A stretch of DNA of 64,000 bases, taken from Fundidesulfovibrio terrae. Lineage in GTDB: Bacteria > Desulfobacterota > Desulfovibrionia > Desulfovibrionales > Desulfovibrionaceae. The notes under the pieces were generated by a model. It was given only the letters and a program-made list of their open reading frames with translations, made no database searches and had not been told where the DNA came from. The DNA is taken from contig NZ_JAKZFS010000001.1 in the NCBI RefSeq assembly GCF_022808915.1, positions 620,001 through 684,000 on the forward strand. Direction: 5' to 3'. This document shows positions 1-8,693 of this stretch, piece after piece. The position numbers were made by a program, and so were the translations under genes. Each line of letters starts with the position of its first letter. The first letter of the stretch is position 1.

Positions 1-572
1 ACCTGATAGGGCGGCTCGCCTGCCAGAAACGAATCGCCCACCGCGTCGGCCTCGATGAACCGGATGCGCGAGAGCGCCTCGGGCGAGAGGCGCGCGCCTC
101 CGTCCTCCACGACAAGATGCCCGCCGTGGTCCTTGAGCGCCCCCCGCAGGCTGGCGGGGCCGAACCGTCCGGTGCGGGCCTTGTCCAGGGCCTCGGGGCT
201 GGCGTCCACGGCGTCGATGAGGAATTCCTCCGGCGCAAGGCCCGCTTCCAGGAAGGTGATGGCCATGGACGCCGGTTCCTCGCCGGTGGCACAGGGGACG
301 CAGAGCGCGCGCACGGGCCTGGGCAGGGCGGCGGCCATGCCGGCCAGTTGGGCGAAGGTGTCAGGATCGCGGAAGAGCCAGGTCTCCTGCACCACGGCTT
401 CCCCGGCCAGAAGGCGGCGCTCCCCGGCGTCGGCGTCGAGCCGTGAAAGGTAGGCATGCGCGTCGAGACCCAGGCGAGCGGCCCCGCGCACGAAGGCGCG
501 ACGGATATTGGCCGCCCCCACCGCCATGGGATCGAGCCCGCACAGCGAGGCCGCGCGTTCGAACTGGTTCAT
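1..572 (-). CDS. cheR: CheR-type chemoreceptor methyltransferase (WspC-like), truncated by window edge
   Basis: SAM-dependent glutamate methyltransferase that adapts the receptors encoded just upstream. The frame read on the minus strand starts MNQFERAASLCGL and carries the two CheR hallmarks, the catalytic-site motif ETWLFRDPDTF (about residue 61) and the SAM-binding loop CVPCATGEEPAS (about residue 86). About 190 residues are visible; the C-terminus lies beyond base 1. The ATG (572-570) overlaps the TGA of the cheW gene by 4 nt (ATGA), so the two are translationally coupled. Given the WspA-like receptor in the same operon it may be a WspC-type methyltransferase with a C-terminal TPR region, but that part is not in the window. 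Confidence 0.9.
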   Translation of the reverse strand, partial: MNQFERAASLCGLDPMAVGAANIRRAFVRGAARLGLDAHAYLSRLDADAGERRLLAGEAVVQETWLFRDPDTFAQLAGMAAALPRPVRALCVPCATGEEPASMAITFLEAGLAPEEFLIDAVDASPEALDKARTGRFGPASLRGALKDHGGHLVVEDGGARLSPEALSRIRFIEADAVGDSFLAGEPPYQ

Positions 573-1012
573 GCGGCCTCCAGGGCGGCCTTGAGGCTCG
601 CCAGCAGTTCGGGCGGGAGCACCGCGCCAAGGGTCAGCACCTGCACCACCTGGCCTTCGTCGGTCACGACGCCCGCCACGTATGGCGCGGCCGGAGCTCC
701 GGGCGGGACCAGGGCGGCCGGGTCGAGGTCCAACGTCTTGAGCACCCGCTCGGCCATGAGGCCGACGGCCAGGCCCGGAGCGGCCATGCCCACCAGGATG
801 CGCGTGGAGGCGAAGGGCCGCGAGGGACGCCCGGCCAGCAGAACGGTCATGTCCGCCACGGGCAGGCTCGCGCCCCGGTGGTTCATGAGCCCTGCCACGT
901 AAGGGGGCGCTCCCGGTAGGGGGGCCAGCTCCACCAGGGGGGTGATCTCCTCCACGTCCCGGGCGGGGAGGGCGAAACGGGCCCCGGCGGCCTTGAAGGT
1001 CACATGGAGCAT
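569..1012 (-). CDS. CheW-like coupling protein
   Basis: Single CheW domain of 147 aa, with no membrane segment or signal peptide. The fold is recognisable from FALPARDVEEITPLVELAPLPGAPPYVAGLMNHRG near the N-terminus (shown here as the family pattern of residues 13-46) and VAGVVTDEGQVVQVLTLG near the C-terminus. It should link the receptor to a CheA kinase encoded beyond the window. The ATG is 6 nt after the stop of the receptor gene and its own stop overlaps the cheR start, so it sits in one operon. In a Wsp-type system it would be WspB or WspD; the sequence alone does not decide which. Confidence 0.88.
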   Translation of the reverse strand: MLHVTFKAAGARFALPARDVEEITPLVELAPLPGAPPYVAGLMNHRGASLPVADMTVLLAGRPSRPFASTRILVGMAAPGLAVGLMAERVLKTLDLDPAALVPPGAPAAPYVAGVVTDEGQVVQVLTLGAVLPPELLASLKAALEAA

Positions 1013-1018
1013 GCCGTG

Positions 1019-3109
1019 TTATCCCAGGTCGAAGCGGGTGATGAGCTCCTTGAGCCCGGCCGCCGTGGTGGTCAGCTCCTCGGCGGCCTGCCTGAACTCG
1101 GCCAGGGAGTCGCGGGTCTGCCCGGCGCTGTCGGCCAACTGGGCGATGACCACGCTGATCTGGTCCGCGCCCTCGGCCTGCAGGCGCATGCCCCCGGTGA
1201 CGCTCGAGAACCTGGGCGTGAGCTCCTCGCCCGCCTCGAGGATGCGGCCGAGCTTGGCGTTGACCCCGCGCGAGGTGTCCGACGCCTGCCCGGCCAGGGA
1301 GGCGAAGCCCTCCATGGCCGCCGAACCGGACTGGACCGACGCCTGCATGTCGCGGATGGTGCGCTCGATGTCCAGGGCTGCTGCTGCTGTCTGGTCGGCG
1401 AGGCGGCGAATCTCGCGGGCCACCACGGCGAATCCGGGGCCGAACTCTCCGGCTTTTTCGGCCTCGATGGCCGCATTGAGCGAGAGCAGGTTCGTCTGGG
1501 CGGCCACCTTGGCGATGGTGGAGAGCAATTGGCCGATGCCGGAGGTCTTTTCCTTGATGAGCGTGAGCTTGGCGGTCATCTCCCGGCTGGCCCCGGAGAG
1601 GTCGTCCATGGCCTGCCCCATGCGGGCCAGGCTTTCGCGGCCTTCCTCGGCCAGGGACGAGCTGCGGTTGGCCACGCCCAGCACCTCGGCCATGGTGTCG
1701 GCCAGCTCCCCGGCCGTGGCCGAGATCTGCTTGCTGGTGGCCCCGACCTCCACGGTGGAGGCGGCCTGCTGGGTGGCCGCGGCCTCGATCTGCCGGGCCG
1801 TGGCCGCGATGCGCCCGGCAGACGCCTGCAGCTGGCCGCCGGTGGAGTTCACCGCGCCCAGAAGCTCCTCCAGGCCATGGATCATGACCGCCACGGCGGA
1901 ATAGAGCTGGCTGGTCTCGGAGCGCGACCGGCTGCCCGCCAGGAGCCTTTCGCGGGTGCAGCTGCCGGAGGGGCAGGAGCGCTCGAGCAGGGCCGCGGCC
2001 TCGCGCACCTTTCCCGCCGCGATGGTGGTGGCGATGCGGGCCACTCGGGCCAGGGGCCTGGTGACGGCGGTGACGATGGTCCAGGAGAGGATCGCCGCCA
2101 GGGCCACTGAGGCCAGGCTCACGGCCAGCACCATGGCCACGCGGGTCTTGAGGGCCATGGTCCGGTTATTGAGAAGATCCGTGAACACGGGATAGCATTG
2201 GTCCCACAGCGAGGCTCCGGTGTCGCGGGCCTCCTGCCCCGCCTTGAGGTAGGCTTGCAGGGTCACGGACGGGTCCTTGCGGCTGACGGCCTGGGCCATG
2301 TGCAGAAATGTGCGGGAGGCGTCCGCGTATGCCTGCACCGCCTTGGGCAGCGAAGAGAGCCTGTCCCCTCCCAAGGCCCGTTGCGCCTTGGTCAGCTTGT
2401 CCAGCAGCCGGTCCACCACGGACTGTTCCCAGGCGGCGCTGACCTGTTCCATCTTGGCCCGCTCCGCGTCGGCGGTCGGGAGTCCGGCCAGGGCGATGAA
2501 GCCGGAGGAGTACAGAATGCCCAGGCGCTCCTGAGCCCTGGGGATGTCGAAGACCAGCAGGTACATCAGATAGTAGGTGGACAGCTCCGGGTCCAGCACC
2601 AGTTGGGCCGAGTCGGCCACGTAATCGCGCATCTCCGCCAGCAGCACCTGGAACTTCATGTGCAAGGCCACGGCCTCTTCGGGCGTGGCCGGTTTGCGAT
2701 CGAAGATGTCCTTGAGACTCTTGATGAACGCCTGGGGCTCCAGATGGGCCAGTCCCTTGGGGGCCAGAACGGCCGGTTCCAGGCCCAGGGCGGGGGCTTC
2801 CCTGGTCAGGCGCAGGACCATCTCGTTCCAGCGGCCGTGGAGCGACGCGTCGAGTTGGGCGAGCCGGGCATCGACGTCCTCTCCGGACATACGCCCGAGA
2901 ACCAGCCGCAGGTGCTCGGCCACGCCCTCGGTGACATCCTCCATGGGCTCGATGACGCTTATGCCCTGGGCCTCCACCCGGGTCAGGCAGATCTCCTTGG
3001 ACATCTGCCCGAGCAGCAGGGCCAGCAGCAGAACGATTGGAACCAGGAAGCTCAGGCCGCACAGGGCGAGCTTGGAACTCAGCTTGAGGTCGCGCCACCA
3101 GGCGATCAT
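1019..3109 (-). CDS. Methyl-accepting chemoreceptor, WspA-like
   Basis: Transmembrane chemoreceptor of 696 aa. TM1 is at residues 11-35, followed by a large extracytoplasmic helical region to about 315, TM2 at 318-345, a HAMP region, and the signalling hairpin around residues 525-575. The hairpin core [19 protein letters not shown] and the following [13 protein letters not shown] match the WspA (surface-sensing) subgroup better than flagellar receptors, which read [14 protein letters not shown] and [10 protein letters not shown]. Two oddities: a Cys-pair insertion (CPSGSC, about residue 376) in the HAMP region, and Pro instead of the usual Arg in GRGFAVVA just after the tip. It lacks a C-terminal NWETF pentapeptide. 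Its ATG overlaps the stop of the upstream receptor gene by 4 nt. Confidence 0.9.
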
Positions 3110-4143
3110 GAGCGGCCGTCCTTTGTTTCGGGTTCGACGTCCGCCAGGCCTTGGGCGGCGCGGACGACATCTTCGGCCAGAGAGGCCAGGGCGTCCAGGG
3201 AGAAGGCCATGGCCCTGGCCGTGCCCTGGAGTTTTTCCAGTTCGCCGGGCACTCCCCGGGCGTAGCCTCCGGCCTCGGACAGGCGGGGGGCCAGTTCATC
3301 CAGGGACTTGACCGCCTGGTCCAACGACGCCTGGGCCTCGCGCAGCTTGCGCTCGCCCGCGCCGGTCTCCCGGGCGAAGGTGTCCATCTCCATGACCTCG
3401 GCGGCCACGGCCTGGCGCATGCGGCTGACCAGTCGCTCGATGTCCTCCGCGCCGATCCCGGCGGTGTCGGCCAGGCGTCGCACCTCGCGGGCCACCACGG
3501 CGAATCCTCGTCCGTGCTCCCCTGCCTTCTCGGCCTCGATGGATGCGTTGAGCGAAAGCAGGTTGGTCTGTTCGGCCATGGCCGCCATGCCCGCCACCAG
3601 GGTCTGGGCCTGCTCGGCGCTTCCGGCGATGACGGTGAGCTTGGCCGATGCGCTGGTTGTCCCGGACAGGATGCGCTCCATGGCCAAGGCCAGCCCGGAC
3701 AGGGACTCCCTGCAGGCCAGCAGGACGCCTGCCGCCTGCTCCACGGGGCCCAGGGACTCCCCGGAGGCCCTGACGGCGTTCTCGGCCTTGGCCTTGGCTG
3801 CGCTCAGGCCGGAAAACAGGTCGCCCAGGGCCGCTCCCGGCTGGCGCGCGGCCGTGGCCAGGGCCTGCGACAGCCGCGGCAGGTGGTCATGCCCGGCGGG
3901 AGGTGGTCCGGCCGGGACCGACGGCTCGGGAATCTCCGGTGGCAGGGCCTCACCCGGTGGCCGGGCGAAAAGGACGCGCCCGGCCAGCGCGCCGAGCGCG
4001 GCGGCGCAGGCCGTCCCGGCGGCAAGGGTGAGGACGGGCGCGACTTCGCCCAGGAAAAACCGGACGGCCTCCTCCAGCCCGCCCGCAACCAGGGCCGCCA
4101 CCGCGCAGAGGAGGGCCGCAGTCTTACCAGGAGTGCTTGACAT
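3106..4143 (-). CDS. Short chemoreceptor-like protein without a periplasmic sensor
   Basis: First gene of the minus-strand chemosensory operon, 345 aa. Two closely spaced hydrophobic segments (residues 9-30 and 35-60) form a membrane hairpin with almost no extracytoplasmic loop. After a Pro-rich linker (65-85) comes a cytoplasmic signalling domain with the tip [19 protein letters not shown] followed by [17 protein letters not shown]. This is the same WspA-like subgroup as the next gene, but here the GRG Arg is intact. There is no HAMP domain. It may form mixed arrays with the downstream receptor or sense membrane state directly. The start lies 86 nt from the divergent histidine kinase gene, so the two share a control region. 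Confidence 0.82.
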
Positions 4144-4228
4144 GGCGGATGATTACCCCGCATCCAAGGAGTACGCAACACGGGGATGGTTGAAGACGGC
4201 CTGGAAAAAAGGTAGTTCTCAAAACGTC

Positions 4229-5404
4229 ATGAAAGTTCAAGCTGTTTCGATGGATTGCGCTCCCGCCGAACGCGGCTCTCCCGAACTTGTCCGGGAGCAG
4301 AACGCACTGTTGCAACGCAATTTCATCGCCACCACCCTGGACGCCATTCCGGTGGTGCTGCTGGTGCTCAACCAGCATCGGCAGATCGTCCTGGCCAACG
4401 CCCAGGCCGAGCGGACCACCGGGAGGGACCGGCAGGACCTCGTGGGGCTTCGTCCCGGCGAGGCCTTCGGGTGCGTCCATGCCTACGGCGAGCCCGCGGG
4501 TTGCGGCACCACGGAGTTCTGTTCCAGGTGCGGGGCCTTGCGGTCCATCCTCGCGGGCATGGAGGGGAAGAAAAGCGTGCAGGAGTGCAGCTTCCTCAGG
4601 CGCAAGGAATTCGGCATCGAGGCAGTGGACCTGCAGGTGAGTTCCTCGCCCATCCAGGTGGAGGGCAACTCCTTCGTGATGTTCTGCATCCAGGATCAAA
4701 GCGACCTGAAACGCCGCCGCACCCTGGAACGGCTGTTCTTCCACGACATGCTCAACACCGCCGGAGGGCTCAAGGGCCTCATGGACATCCTGCGGAGCGA
4801 GGTCCCTGAGGCCCTCAAGCCGGATGCGGATTTCATCCACTCCACCCTGGCCCATCTGGTGGACGAGCTGATCGGCCAGAAGGACCTCATGGCCGCCGAG
4901 AACAACGAACTCACCCCGGTGTTCACCACCCTGCGCAGCACCGAGGTGCTCCAGGGGGCGGCGAAGATCGGCTCCAGCCTGGCCCAGGCCCGGGGCAAGG
5001 CCATCAGCGTCGCGCCGGGCTGCGCCGACGTGGAGTTCATAAGCGACGTGACGCTGGTCAAGCGGGTGATCGGCAACATGGTGAAGAACGCCCTGGAAGC
5101 TTCCGCCACCGGCGACAGTGTCCTTCTCGCCTGCGCCTGCGAAAACGGCCGGGTGACGTTCGCGGTCAACAATTCGGCCGTGATGGAAGACGACGTGCGC
5201 CTGCGCGTGTTCAAGCGCAACTTCTCCACCAAGGGGCGCGGCCGGGGGCTCGGCACCTACGGCATGAAGCTTCTGGGCGAGCGCTATCTGGGAGGCGAGG
5301 TGGGCTTCACCACCCTGGCGGGCAAAGGCACCACCTTCACTTTCTCCCTGCCGCTCGCGCCGGAAAAAGCCTGTCCAGATCCGGGAGCGCCCGGCCAGCC
5401 GTGA
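4229..5404 (+). CDS. PAS-domain sensor histidine kinase with a four-cysteine cluster
   Basis: Soluble kinase of 391 aa with no membrane segment. A PAS domain (about residues 30-160) contains an insertion with Cys82, Cys92, Cys98 and Cys101 (GCVHA, GCG and CSRCG), a spacing suited to an Fe-S cluster or zinc. The phosphoacceptor box is FFHDMLNTAGG (His172), the N box NMVKNALEA and the G box GRGRGLGTYGMKLLGE, so it is a complete HATPase. No receiver domain is fused. Start chosen at ATG 4229 with AAAAGG about 12 nt upstream; an earlier in-frame ATG overlaps the divergent receptor gene. Its TGA overlaps the GTG of the Rad50-like half gene (GTGA), so kinase and ATPase are co-translated, which is unusual. 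No cognate response regulator is adjacent. Confidence 0.85.
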   Translation: MKVQAVSMDCAPAERGSPELVREQNALLQRNFIATTLDAIPVVLLVLNQHRQIVLANAQAERTTGRDRQDLVGLRPGEAFGCVHAYGEPAGCGTTEFCSRCGALRSILAGMEGKKSVQECSFLRRKEFGIEAVDLQVSSSPIQVEGNSFVMFCIQDQSDLKRRRTLERLFFHDMLNTAGGLKGLMDILRSEVPEALKPDADFIHSTLAHLVDELIGQKDLMAAENNELTPVFTTLRSTEVLQGAAKIGSSLAQARGKAISVAPGCADVEFISDVTLVKRVIGNMVKNALEASATGDSVLLACACENGRVTFAVNNSAVMEDDVRLRVFKRNFSTKGRGRGLGTYGMKLLGERYLGGEVGFTTLAGKGTTFTFSLPLAPEKACPDPGAPGQP

Positions 5405-6633
5405 TCCGTCGCCTGACCCTGACTAATTTCATGGCCCACGCCAGCACCATCCTGGAGCTGGCTCCGGGCCTCAACGTGCTGTGCGGCCCCAACAACACCG
5501 GCAAGTCCGCCGTGGTGGAGGCGTTGCGCTGCCTGGCCAACAACCCCTCGCCGCGCCACTACATCCGCCATGGAGCGTCCGAGGCCCGCGTCGAAGCCCT
5601 GCTGGACGACGGCTGGCGCGTGGCCTGGGTGCGGCGCAAGGCCCACGCCCTGTACGAGGTCTACGCGCCCGGCCAGGACGAACCCCAGGTGTTCGCCAAG
5701 CTGGGCCGCAGCATGGTCCCTCCCGAGGTGGCCAAACTCGTCAAGCTCGCCCCGGTGGGGTTCGACAAGGGCGACGAGGTGGACGTCCACCTGGGCGACC
5801 AGCGCCATCCCATCTTCCTCCTGGATAAGCCGGGCTCCCTGATGGCGGATTTTCTGGCCTCGTCCACGGAGAGCGCCCACCTCATGGCCATGCAGGACGC
5901 GCTACGCGAAAAGACCCGGCGCATGAAGACCGAGCAGCGCAAGCTCGAAGAAGCCGCCGAGCGGGCCCGGTCCGGCCTGGACAGGCTTTCCGCCCTGCCG
6001 GGCGTGTCCCTGTCCCTGGAGCGGCTGCGCGAGGACGGCCGCGTCCTCCAGGACCGGGCCGCCCGCATGCCCGCCGTCCAGGCCGATGTGGAGCGCATGG
6101 AGCGCCTGACCGGGGAGGCGCGGACCCTGCGCTCCCGGACTTCCCTCCTTGGTGGTTTGGCGAAGCCGCCGAGTCCTGCTCCGGCGGCGGACCTGGCCGC
6201 GACCCTCGCGGCCGTGGACGCGCTGCGCTCACGGTCCGCGTCGATCCGGGCCACGCTCGCCCGCCTGGCCCCCCTGGCCGCCCCCGGCGGTCTGCGCCTT
6301 TGCGCGCCCCTGGCCGACGCCTGCGCCCAGGCGGGCAGCCTGCGCGCGCTCAAGGCCCGCGCCTCGGGCAGGCTCGCGGCCCTGGCCGGGCTTTCACCGC
6401 CGCCCGGGCTGCCCGATCCGGCCCCCCTGGCCGGACTGGTCGAATCCATGGATGTGCTGGCCGGGCGCATCGCCAAGGGCCGGGCCTGGCTTGTCGAGCG
6501 GGAAACGGCCCTTTCGGCCCTGTCCGAACGAATTGCCGCGCGGCTTGCCGAGGTGGGCGAATGCCCGCTGTGCGGGGCCGGGCTGGACGCTGCGAAATTC
6601 TTAAGGAAGGCGGGCGGACATGGGGCTGCCTAG
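5401..6633 (+). CDS. Rad50/SbcC-like ATPase, N-terminal half ending in a zinc-hook motif
   Basis: 410 aa, GTG start overlapping the kinase stop. Residues 1-40 are a Rad50-type head start (IRRLTLTNFMAH, then Walker A GPNNTGKSA), followed by the N-lobe to about 165, then charged helical coiled coil (about 175-230) and an Ala/Leu-rich helical region. The protein ends with ECPLCGAGLDAAKFL, a CxxC zinc-hook-like motif only about 20 residues from the C-terminus. There is no Walker B or ABC signature: these occur in the gene at 7968-8693. I read it as one arm of a Rad50-like SMC protein split at the hook. The next gene overlaps its 3' end by 14 nt. The family of such split halves is not one I can name. 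Confidence 0.8.
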   Translation: MIRRLTLTNFMAHASTILELAPGLNVLCGPNNTGKSAVVEALRCLANNPSPRHYIRHGASEARVEALLDDGWRVAWVRRKAHALYEVYAPGQDEPQVFAKLGRSMVPPEVAKLVKLAPVGFDKGDEVDVHLGDQRHPIFLLDKPGSLMADFLASSTESAHLMAMQDALREKTRRMKTEQRKLEEAAERARSGLDRLSALPGVSLSLERLREDGRVLQDRAARMPAVQADVERMERLTGEARTLRSRTSLLGGLAKPPSPAPAADLAATLAAVDALRSRSASIRATLARLAPLAAPGGLRLCAPLADACAQAGSLRALKARASGRLAALAGLSPPPGLPDPAPLAGLVESMDVLAGRIAKGRAWLVERETALSALSERIAARLAEVGECPLCGAGLDAAKFLRKAGGHGAA

Positions 6634-7570
6634 AATCGCGGGCCAGGGCCTGTTCGTCATCTGCGACCCCCACGTGGCCGCCACACCGCCCATGCAGCGC
6701 CTGGAGGGCTACCGCGAGCAGGTGACGGCCAAGCTGACCGCCTGCCTGGAGCGGGCCCGTGAACTCGGCTGTCATCCGGTCATAGCCGGGGACCTCTTCC
6801 ACTGGCCCCGGGAGAATCCCAACTCCCTGATCGTGGAGTTGATCGAGCTTTTGCGGCCCCACATGCCGTCGGTGCTGGTGGGCAACCACGACAAGTACCT
6901 GGCCCGGTTCACCCGCGACGTATCCCTGGCGGTGCTGGACGCGGCCGGAGCGGTGCGACTCATGAGCGAGCCCGGCCCGCAGTTCTGGCTGGACACCCCC
7001 GAGGGCCCCGCGCTGGTGGGGGCCTCGCCCGACGGCTCGCACCTGCCCCGGCAGGTGGACCGGAACGGGGCCGTGGCCACGGTGTGGTTCTCCCACCACT
7101 CCATCAGCTTCCCCGACTTCCAGGACCGCCTGCTCTTCCCCAAGGAGATCCCCGGCCTGGACTGGGTGATCAACGGGCACATCCACCGGCCCCAGCCCAT
7201 GGTGGTCAAGGGAGCGACGCGCTGGTGCAACCCGGGCAACATCACCCGCCTGACCTTCACCCAGCGCACCAGGGAGCGCGTCCCGGCGGCCTCGGTCTGG
7301 CGGCCCGGCGCGCAGGAGCTCACGCGCTGGCCCGTGCCGGTGCTTCCCTTCGAGAAGGTCTTCCCGGACCAGCCGTTCGCTCCGGAGCCGGGGCCGGAGG
7401 AGCGGAAGTCGCTCTTCCTCAAGGGCCTGGAGCGCCTAGCCTGGCGTCGCACCCAGGAGGGCCTGGGGCTCAAGGATTTTCTGTCAGCGAACCTGAACCC
7501 GGAGCACCCCGAGACGGGGCTCATCTGGGAACTCTACGAGGAGGTGGCCGGTGGCTCGAAACGCCCCTGA
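6620..7570 (+). CDS. Mre11/SbcD-like metallophosphoesterase
   Basis: 316 aa calcineurin-like phosphoesterase. All metal-site motifs are present in order: DPH (residues 14-16), GDLFH (about 56), GNHDK (about 91), FSHHS (about 158) and GHIHRPQ (about 189), followed by CNPGNITR. This is the Mre11/SbcD pattern for a dinuclear Mn nuclease. A tail of about 80 residues after the catalytic domain could serve as a capping or ATPase-binding region. RBS AAGGAAGG precedes the ATG, which lies inside the 3' end of the preceding Rad50-like gene. Its stop lies within the next gene. Position between the two Rad50-like halves supports a nuclease-ATPase complex acting on DNA ends; substrate unknown. Confidence 0.85.
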   Translation: MGLPRIAGQGLFVICDPHVAATPPMQRLEGYREQVTAKLTACLERARELGCHPVIAGDLFHWPRENPNSLIVELIELLRPHMPSVLVGNHDKYLARFTRDVSLAVLDAAGAVRLMSEPGPQFWLDTPEGPALVGASPDGSHLPRQVDRNGAVATVWFSHHSISFPDFQDRLLFPKEIPGLDWVINGHIHRPQPMVVKGATRWCNPGNITRLTFTQRTRERVPAASVWRPGAQELTRWPVPVLPFEKVFPDQPFAPEPGPEERKSLFLKGLERLAWRRTQEGLGLKDFLSANLNPEHPETGLIWELYEEVAGGSKRP

Positions 7571-7868
7571 CGGCCCTGACGCCGCGCTCGAGCGCGAATT
7601 GGGCCAGCTCAAGGCCGAATACGAGAAACTGCGCGAGGAACAGGTGCGGGCCGAGCAGACGCTCGCGCACCTGGAGGCGGAACTCTCGTCCCTGGAGGAA
7701 AAGGCCCGCCAGGAGTATGGCACCTCCGATCCGGCCGAACTCAAGGCCAGGCTCGAATCCATGCGCGCTGAGAACGAACGGATGGTGGCGGCCTACCGCG
7801 AGCACATCGCCTCGGTGCGGGGGGGGCTGGACGCCCTGGAGCGCGGCGTGAACGACGATGCCCGCTAG
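7551..7868 (+). CDS. Small coiled-coil protein between Mre11-like and Rad50-like genes
   Basis: 105 aa, GTG start with GAGGAGG just upstream, overlapping the phosphoesterase gene by 20 nt. Residues 10-65 and 73-100 are heptad-rich, charged, strongly helical (LERELGQLKAEYEKLREEQ and onward). There is no enzymatic motif or cysteine. It could supply additional coiled coil for the split Rad50-like protein or act as a bridging subunit; both are inference from position and composition. The tight overlap says it is expressed with the nuclease. I do not recognise a named family. Confidence 0.7.
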   Translation: MARNAPDGPDAALERELGQLKAEYEKLREEQVRAEQTLAHLEAELSSLEEKARQEYGTSDPAELKARLESMRAENERMVAAYREHIASVRGGLDALERGVNDDAR

Positions 7869-7891
7869 ATTCGCGCCGTGCCCCTCCGTTC

Positions 7892-7931
7892 GGGAGTCCG
7901 GAGGGCGCAGCCCTTTGGTCGCCGGAGGCTT
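7892..7931 (+). repeat. 40-bp intergenic repeat element, copy A
   Basis: Begins GGGAGTCCGG and ends CGCCGGAGGCTT. An inverted copy at 8721-8760 matches at 38 of 40 positions by eye. It sits inside the operon between the small coiled-coil gene and the second Rad50-like half, so transcripts would carry two complementary copies around that gene. Confidence 0.85.
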
Positions 7932-7967
7932 CTCCCCTGCGGCCTCGCCGTTCCGGAACCATACAGC

Positions 7968-8693
7968 ATGAGCGAAACGTTCTCCTCTTCCCTCTCCTTC
8001 CTCCTGTCCGAACTGGACGGCCTCGACCGCCGGGCCGGGCGTCTGGAGGGGCTTGCCGACGCCTTCGTGCGCGAGCACCAGCGCATCCGGCGCGATCTGG
8101 ACGAGGTGCGCGCCTTCCTGGAGATGGCCCCCCAGGCCCAGGCGCGCCTGGAAGAGCTCTCGCGCGAGCTTTTCGGCGAGCTCATGGAGGAGGTGGAGTC
8201 CAACCTGACCCACGCGGTTCGCGAGATCCTGGGGCAGGACCGCCGGGTGGTGAGCCGCAGGGAGGTCAAGCAGGGCAAGTTCCACATCACACTGGAGATG
8301 GAGAACCAGGGGCAGGTGGAGGATATCCTGCACGGCCAGGGCGGTTCGGTGTGCAACATCCTGTCCGTGGGGCTGAGGCTCATCGGCCTGGCCCAGCTGG
8401 ACCCGGAAAAACACCGGCGCTTCCTGGTGCTGGACGAGCAGGACTGCTGGCTGCGCCCTGAGCTGGTGCCCACGTTCACCCGGCTCATCGCGGCCATCGG
8501 CGAGAAGCTGGGCCTGCAGGTGCTCACCATCAGCCACCACGCGGTGGACGCCTTCTACGGCCACGCGGGCCGGGTGTTCCAGTTGTCCCCCAGCCGGGAG
8601 AGCGGGGTCACGGTGACGGTGCTGGGCGGGACGAGGGTCGAGGAGCCGGAGGAAGGGGAATCGGTCCGGGACGACGAGACGGAGGAAAGCTAG
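7968..8693 (+). CDS. Rad50/SbcC-like ATPase, C-terminal half
   Basis: 241 aa. A helical N-terminal region (residues 1-90) leads into an ABC-type head: a glycine-rich signature-like segment GQGGSVCNILSVGLRL (about 123-138), Walker B FLVLDEQDCWL (about 152-162) and an H-loop TISHHAVDAF (about 186). There is no Walker A, which is supplied by the protein at 5401-6633, so the two should pair to make a composite ATP site. Start taken at ATG 7968, the first Met followed by helical sequence; the upstream frame runs through a repeat element and is unlikely to be translated. An acidic tail ends the protein. It is separated by about 100 nt from the preceding gene, unlike the tight overlaps upstream. Confidence 0.78.
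   Translation: MSETFSSSLSFLLSELDGLDRRAGRLEGLADAFVREHQRIRRDLDEVRAFLEMAPQAQARLEELSRELFGELMEEVESNLTHAVREILGQDRRVVSRREVKQGKFHITLEMENQGQVEDILHGQGGSVCNILSVGLRLIGLAQLDPEKHRRFLVLDEQDCWLRPELVPTFTRLIAAIGEKLGLQVLTISHHAVDAFYGHAGRVFQLSPSRESGVTVTVLGGTRVEEPEEGESVRDDETEES

Follow-up and report, generated by a model that had tools for sequence, protein, structure and literature searches.

A four-gene set of Fundidesulfovibrio terrae with Rad50-like lobes on separate chains, a modular repeat arm and an Mre11-like nuclease

The gene set and its products

In the sulfate-reducing bacterium Fundidesulfovibrio terrae (genome size 3.9 Mb), four tightly packed genes running in the same direction, here named A, N, CC and B, span positions 5401-8693 of the window, i.e., the whole stretch of 64,000 nucleotides that was analysed. 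By motifs and predicted fold, A and B are the two lobes of a Rad50-type ATPase head on separate chains, and between them lie a predicted Mre11-like nuclease, N, and a small helical protein, CC. At this locus, Fundidesulfovibrio agrisoli is the closest named relative, its B being 78% identical. All four genes are on the forward strand; A and N overlap by 14 bases and N and CC by 20 bases. B starts at the ATG at 7968; with the GTG upstream, at 7878, the protein would be 30 residues longer, and the relatives mostly begin near the later site.

A (5401-6633, 410 amino acids (aa)) consists of a Rad50 N-lobe, a repeat arm and a C-terminal zinc-hook motif, as seen from its open reading frame (ORF), Pfam, alignment, profile searches and fold. 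The Walker A motif GPNNTGKS (residues 29-36, positions 5485-5508) is present in all 83 A proteins checked, and Q134, which we take to be the Q-loop, is invariant. The N-lobe families AAA_15, AAA_23 and AAA_27 pass the Pfam cut-off, and PHROGs places A in an "exonuclease" family (E-value 4.6e-21). A profile of 37 A proteins (39 minus L042 and L044, which were omitted from the alignment) matches the Rad50 N-lobes 5f3w (3.4e-7) and 1ii8 (6e-7) in PDB, as well as 1f2t. The AlphaFold model of A, with a mean predicted local distance difference test score (pLDDT) of 83.0 and a predicted template modelling score (pTM) of 0.40, matches 1ii8_A, 1f2u_C and 1f2u_A in Foldseek.

The chain of A ends shortly after the hook motif CPLC (residues 388-391, positions 6562-6573), which is followed by a glycine. 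C388 and C391 are invariant in the 37 aligned A proteins and in 46/46 picked from a wider set. Profile positions 366-436 match the Rad50 hook structures 6zff (4.7e-4) and 1l8d (2.5e-3), and Pfam reports the Rad50 zinc hook at residues 376-398 below its threshold. Of the 92 distinct cellular A proteins, 91 have a terminal CxxC, as do 25/25 phage A proteins; here and below, the 92 distinct proteins and 89 distinct loci were counted after removal of five duplicate pairs. The planctomycete A of locus L124 (2383-4647) is without CxxC and, by eye, has a membrane-spanning segment and a new tail at its end.

N (6620-7570, 316 aa) is a predicted calcineurin-fold nuclease of the Mre11 type, based on Pfam, alignment and profile. 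It carries the motifs DPH, GDLFH, GNHD and GHIH, and residues D16, H18, D58, N89, H90, H187 and H189 are invariant in 39/39 sequences. The patterns DxH, GDx[FIVL], GNHD and G[HY]xH all occur in 92 of the 95 N proteins of at least 290 aa; the other three are phage proteins without the second pattern. The calcineurin-like phosphoesterase family passes the Pfam cut-off, and a profile of 39 N proteins matches TmMre11/SbcD in PDB (2q8u, 9.3e-5; 3qg5, 1.7e-4). CC (7551-7868, 105 aa) is, from its ORF and the alignment, helical and probably a hairpin around a YGTSDP turn, as judged by eye.

B (7968-8693, 241 aa) is modelled by AlphaFold (mean pLDDT 86.7, pTM 0.65) as one 87-residue N-terminal helix followed by a Rad50/SMC-type C-lobe, an assignment that also draws on alignment, profile and Foldseek. 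The motifs GQGGSV, LVLDEQD and ISHH are invariant except for Q158 in 38/38 B proteins. In the window, the signature position GQGGS (residues 123-127, 8334-8348) lies at the start of helix 125-142 of the model, Walker B (LVLDEQD, 8424-8444) retains the catalytic glutamate, and the H-loop SHH follows at 8532-8540. A Walker A motif is absent from all B proteins checked (0/102). Pfam gives just a weak hemerythrin match for B, PHROGs an "ATPase" family (2.9e-4), and a profile of 38 B proteins finds weak PDB matches to SMC1 and ABC transporters alone (6qpw, 2.8e-3). By fold, the best match is the SMC head 5h66_B (9.7e-8), and Pf Rad50 9a9j_B (6.9e-7), 1f2u_B (1.4e-5) and 1f2u_D (1.6e-5) are also matched, the last two with template modelling (TM) scores of 0.67-0.68 by target. 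This match to SMC/Rad50 heads rules out that B is an unrelated ATPase.

From the fold matches it follows that the two natural halves correspond to the separate chains of the crystal structure 1F2U of the Pf Rad50 catalytic domain, A to its chains C and A, and B to its chains B and D. In that structure the coil was reportedly removed by the experimenters and the protein made as two chains; here, in contrast, the split is natural and A keeps the arm and the hook. The initial annotation of this DNA, made from the sequence alone, had proposed a Rad50-like protein split at its zinc hook around an Mre11-like nuclease. Its four ORFs and their motifs, including the missing Walker A of B, are confirmed by the alignments; the profile and Foldseek matches bear out the two lobes, those to TmMre11/SbcD bear out the nuclease, and the split indeed lies just after the hook motif.

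The arm of A

What was initially annotated as coiled coil in A turns out to be largely a proline-punctuated 39-residue helical tandem repeat, with variable copy number among cellular homologues and a period of 47 in phages. In the window there are three units, with boundaries set by eye at residues 250-288, 289-327 and 328-366 (6148-6498). L265, L289 and P335 are invariant in the alignment, and L250, P257 and L292 nearly so. In the 92 distinct cellular A proteins, 177 of the 212 gaps from one PP to the next measure 38-40 residues and 27 more are near multiples (185/221 at 38-40 residues if the duplicates are left in). The autocorrelation of 96 cellular arms peaks at lags 39 and 78 (z 5.2 and 4.1), with a mean score at lag 39 of 0.32 vs -0.65 (standard deviation 0.014) in 50 shuffles. 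The 25 phage arms, many of which are near-copies, peak at lag 47 (z 4.2) and PP is absent from them. The one canonical SbcC arm tested shows no comparable peak, its best z being 2.8 at lag 58.

The length of the arm is quantised. It falls into classes of 179, 218-233, 257-274, 298-309, 339-348, 375-387 and 495-498 residues, and a period of 39.0 fits the 35 distinct lengths best, with a strength equalled by none of 5000 uniform random sets. While the arm spans 179-498 residues, CC stays at 97-123 aa (89 distinct loci), and the part of B before the signature has 106-130 residues in 78 of 88 cases; in the other ten it is longer, up to 183, and the choice of start is uncertain there. As CC and B are nearly constant in length and the arm is not, neither can be a full-length descending strand, and because a coiled coil needs strands of similar length they cannot supply a paired coil for the arm. 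CC is thereby ruled out as a descending strand that would accompany the arm over its full length. Nor does a variable-copy repeat whose supposed descending pieces hardly change in length fit the initial idea that a normal coiled coil had been cut at the hook. A weak correlation between the lengths of CC and the arm remains (Spearman 0.27, p 0.009, 89 distinct loci, kinship ignored).

Homologues differ by single units, and an up-and-down bundle would then flip the hook end. We therefore infer that the arm is a rod of helix-PP units, each of which would advance the hook, although the pTM of the model is too low to show a rod.

A quantised arm could also be expected in a structural, SMC-like or bridging machine, in which DNA would be tethered by the ATPase and the hook, with nuclease action rare or confined to special structures. 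The fold match of B to an SMC head, and the SMC6 heads that are the top PDB rows for the A profile, are in line with such a machine. However, N retains the Mre11 metal site, the hook region matches Rad50 hooks, and CC, the sole other small gene of the operon, has no kleisin match in the Pfam and NCBIfam libraries searched. We consider this explanation very unlikely.

Conservation among bacteria

A and B have the same distribution over 150 genomes of the order Desulfovibrionales, both being present in an identical set of 42. All 42 have strong matches to B (E-value 1.2e-96 or better; a 43rd match, in G037 at 3.6e-4, is excluded from the count) and 40 have strong matches to A, the other two, G102 and G124, carrying A as contig-edge fragments. 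The order A-N-CC is kept in 38/38 fetched relatives. B is present in the fetched stretch of 37 of them, directly after CC in 30 and 0.8-5.5 kb off in seven, and on the opposite strand in L039 and L046; in the genome of the last one, G036, it sits on another contig. Among 395 genomes drawn across the phylum, B is found in 20.

With B as query, a collection of one genome per species (84,980 species) was scanned, and the best 80 of 100 confirmed loci were returned. They come from Desulfovibrionaceae, Syntrophobacteraceae, Desulfobaccaceae, Desulfobacterales, Pirellulaceae and other Planctomycetota, as well as from two Bacillota bins, one Poribacteria bin and some ill-named bins. All 68 of these loci that show all four genes have them in the order A-N-CC-B on one strand, and they belong to Thermodesulfobacteriota, Planctomycetota, Bacillota and Poribacteria. 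The conservation check that the initial annotation had proposed thus came out in its favour, as the set is kept in related and distant genomes. Two bins, L086 and L119, hold B alone, with nearly 6 kb upstream without A, N or CC and with A not found elsewhere in either bin.

A tree of B, made with a quick method, separates a Desulfovibrionaceae/Syntrophobacterales side from a planctomycete side that includes Desulfobacterales and Bacillota, a topology that may point to some gene transfer. The B proteins of the two Bacillota bins, L120 and L125, closely resemble each other and sit on a long stem within the planctomycete side.

Two half-ATPases flanking other genes are also what one would see if an SbcC gene had been disrupted by a frameshift or by the insertion of N and CC. 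An artefact of this kind is ruled out by the arrangement itself, which is identical in the 68 loci across phyla and has a related form in phages. Moreover, both halves are under strong constraint, and no ORF with both A and B exists among the 108 loci searched, which leaves this explanation with practically no probability.

Phage relatives

A search of 50,697 phage records with A yields six weak relatives. B as query has no match in the same records, and the cellular B alignment run against viral contigs gave 21 pattern matches, none of which was confirmed. The best relative is the Bacillus phage vB_BboS-125, where gp32 (annotated as exonuclease) ends in CPLC, gp34 has 78 aa and gp35 (annotated as ATPase) carries RGGG, FLDE and ITHN. 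Together with an unannotated Mre11-like ORF, these are the same halves, again split after a terminal CPLC, and here too a small helical gene precedes B. However, N comes after B, the arm has a period of 47 without PP, and an extra gene annotated as AP2 lies between A and CC. The set lies near a Holliday junction resolvase and a helicase.

The unannotated ORF (9250-10230 of L033, the vB_BboS-125 record) encodes, by motifs, a complete Mre11-like nuclease. The gene annotated as AP2 has the same place between A and CC in several phages (L155 5179, L156 5062, L171 5113, L180 4811); its copy in L155 has no Pfam match at 1e-5, and other phages hold a different small ORF there.

Using gp35 as query, 27 viral contigs from Firmicute phages and prophages were found, one of them with a protein 100% identical to gp35. 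By profile, all 27 contigs have A and N, and 23 have B as well, the gene order being A, B, N; in the remaining four, B is the gp35 match itself, in the same place. Three phage sets match the cellular profiles at 1e-24 to 1e-29 (A), 1e-13 to 1e-17 (N) and 1e-4 to 1e-6 (B), whereas for the one canonical SbcC and SbcD tested, both from genome G011, the identical setting gives no match to any of the four profiles at E-values up to 10. A profile-profile alignment of cellular and phage B reaches 96% probability (4.6e-9). Finally, the top three viral fold matches of B (BFVD A0A6J7XLB5, A0A516LLJ2 and A0A8S5ME05) hint at further split Rad50 halves, as each is a protein on its own, 193-219 aa long; two carry a tailed-phage label and one is unnamed.

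Canonical SbcCD, neighbouring genes and role

The window genome has no match to TIGR00618 (SbcC) or TIGR00619 (SbcD), and neither model is among the matches of A, N, CC and B; the controls for these curated models were positive in 14/14 and 13/14 known genomes. In the 42 carriers no intact canonical SbcC was found with the SbcC family and one canonical SbcC protein as queries; beyond short or weak matches, there is just an interrupted copy in G115 and a 75-residue piece in G125. Canonical SbcC matches, some of them mere pieces, occur in 19/108 non-carriers (18 at an E-value of 1e-20, plus G091). In 25 genomes picked among the 80 loci, 22 have no SbcC match at 1e-10 and three have a canonical SbcC too, the control for this check being positive in 11/14; the SbcC occurrence counts ignore kinship.

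G115 is the lone split-system genome with most of a canonical SbcC (L183, 2316-6813). This copy is 86-96% identical to that of another genus, and its coding sequence is broken by an inserted gene that has integrase-core (rve) domains and resembles an insertion-sequence transposase.

Upstream of A, and overlapping it by 4 bases, lies an ORF for a PAS histidine kinase (4136-5404, forward strand, start uncertain; Pfam), which the initial annotation had taken to be coupled to the system. In the 38 fetched relatives' stretches it occurs in nine and next to A in seven, and we regard it as a lineage-specific neighbour outside the system. Further upstream, on the minus strand, are a CheW gene and two genes with chemoreceptor signalling domains (569-4143). 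Among gene clusters found near at least four operons, none adjoining the operon recurs across phyla. A cluster of PAS-domain genes (by eye) spans Desulfovibrionaceae and Syntrophobacterales, and an ABC-transporter-like cluster is seen at four loci, one of them planctomycete, 1.9-5.4 kb from the operon.

The phage relatives raise the question of whether the bacterial set is a phage-type recombination or defence module that processes foreign or phage DNA ends, rather than one for chromosomal repair. The occurrence of A, N and B in 27 contigs of Firmicute phages and prophages, the resolvase and helicase nearby in vB_BboS-125, and the closeness of three phage sets to profiles that miss a canonical SbcC and SbcD all speak for such a module. 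The PADLOC models for LmuB, GajA and PtuA match A, one LmuB model over residues 2-396 (1.2e-7), and mad8 matches B (6.7e-4). However, among the best 25 of the 85 PADLOC rows for A nearly all are limited to the first ~55 residues, i.e., the shared Walker A lobe. The ten proteins flanking five loci, nine of which have Pfam matches (HflX, malate synthase, an efflux protein and others), include none that is defence-like, and the gene set is carried by 42/150 genomes of the order with one main copy each. PADLOC and the flanking proteins thus give no clear support for a defence system, and phage defence or plasmid control, both suggested initially, find none in this small sample of neighbours. We hold a module of this kind to be improbable. 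From the distribution of canonical SbcCD and the lack of operon-adjoining genes that recur across phyla, we instead favour a role in the processing of chromosomal DNA ends; phages would have a version of their own, encoded close to a resolvase and a helicase.

Comparison with known systems

The set shares with SbcCD and Mre11-Rad50 the Rad50 N-lobe with Walker A, the C-lobe with Walker B, its glutamate and an H-loop, the CxxC hook, and a nuclease with the Mre11 metal motifs encoded by a neighbouring gene. It differs in its separate Rad50 chains, the 39-residue repeats on one of them, the third small protein and GQGGS. The canonical SbcC of G011 carries Walker A, CPLC and LSGGE at 37, 538 and 984 of a single chain; here, in contrast, the lobes are on separate ORFs, the arm is unmatched by CC or B, and in place of an LSGGE-type signature only the GG is kept at the start of the helix in the model. 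With the Mre11-Rad50 features present but one chain, paired coil and LSGGE missing, the set appears to be a variant of the family and not SbcCD.

The set does not fit Gabija or Lamassu either. GajA of Gabija is an ABC ATPase fused to a TOPRIM nuclease; its rows among the best 25 from PADLOC for A lie in residues 1-55, and Pfam finds no TOPRIM in A or B. Several models of Lamassu LmuB touch A, and LmuB is described, in the part of the source consulted, as a small Rad50-like ATPase of about 650 aa in one protein, many members having a zinc-hook motif and Walker B generally being changed from glutamate to glutamine (PMC10586767). B, in contrast, keeps DE, and the chains are split. T4 gp46/gp47 and other phage SbcCD are likewise phage-borne Mre11-Rad50 complexes, but their SbcC is, as far as the part consulted goes, one chain with both lobes (PMC5105663), unlike the split set. 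Literature searches by title and abstract opening, with subscription journals and preprints outside their range, turned up no description of a naturally split Rad50.

Proposed mechanism

It is probable, and we hold it with some confidence, that A, B, N and probably CC form an Mre11-Rad50-type DNA-end-processing complex in which Rad50 naturally exists as separate chains. Motif functions and ABC mechanics are used here as generally known. One ABC ATPase head would be built from lobe A, which supplies Walker A and a probable Q-loop, and lobe B, which supplies the signature position, Walker B and the H-loop. As in SbcCD, ATP would be bound between two such heads, which would also position a pair of N nuclease subunits over a DNA end. 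Only A carries the arm and the hook. The N-terminal helix of B (residues 2-88) could pair with the base of the arm only, and the rest would be a rod of 39-residue helix-PP units standing without a matching descending strand. The CxxC hook at the end of the rod would link two complexes through zinc, while CC may brace the arm or the head-arm junction. As homologues differ by single units, each unit in such a rod would have to move the hook by an equal step. The ATPase and nuclease activities are predicted from the retained motifs, and the complex may well serve in housekeeping break repair.

Several observations weigh against this explanation. The signature is GQGGS in 114/117 cellular B proteins (GTGGS in L125 is one of the three exceptions) and RGGG or NGGG in phages, not the LSGGE of canonical SbcC, and ATP-driven engagement of the heads is putative. 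The TM scores of B by query are moderate, 0.36-0.49 over the 20 best rows, and the model of A fits closely over the head alone (3.6 Å over 113 columns with 1f2u_C). NCBIfam gives partial Rad50, SMC and related matches far under the cut-off for A, and none of its models matches N or B. Homology of cellular and phage CC is not supported (hhalign probability 0.4%). Among the 80 loci, 12 are without all four genes; eight of these are cut by contig ends, but four (L086, L119, L126 and L152) are uncut, and A is located elsewhere in two of these four genomes and was not found in the other two, both metagenome-assembled genomes. Finally, 89 of the 150 order genomes show neither the canonical nor the split system, where absence of SbcC rests on 4-5 scored candidates per genome. 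With these, and with both systems in 3/25 of the picked genomes, a clean replacement of SbcCD by the split system is unsupported as a rule.

Beyond the complex itself, it can be speculated, at about even chances, that the family is an ancient separate branch of Mre11-Rad50, present in several phyla and in phages, that lacks the antiparallel coiled coil. It would combine a two-chain head with a single-chain modular rod bearing a zinc hook, and its reach would be set by the copy number of the fixed-length units (39 residues in cells, 47 in phages).

Implications

Models of Rad50 and SMC proteins assume a single chain in which an antiparallel coiled coil connects the two lobes and relays signals between head and tip. 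The family described here points to another evolutionary solution, in which the lobes are separate and one chain bears the arm. The part of PMC5344682 consulted calls it unclear if the Rad50 arm has critical periodic elements, and describes Smc arms as functional solely in periodic length regimes; the natural series of arm lengths in whole units bears on this question for Rad50. Mixing the two chains in vitro would let head assembly be started. For bacteria without a detected canonical SbcCD, the set is a candidate DNA-end-processing enzyme.

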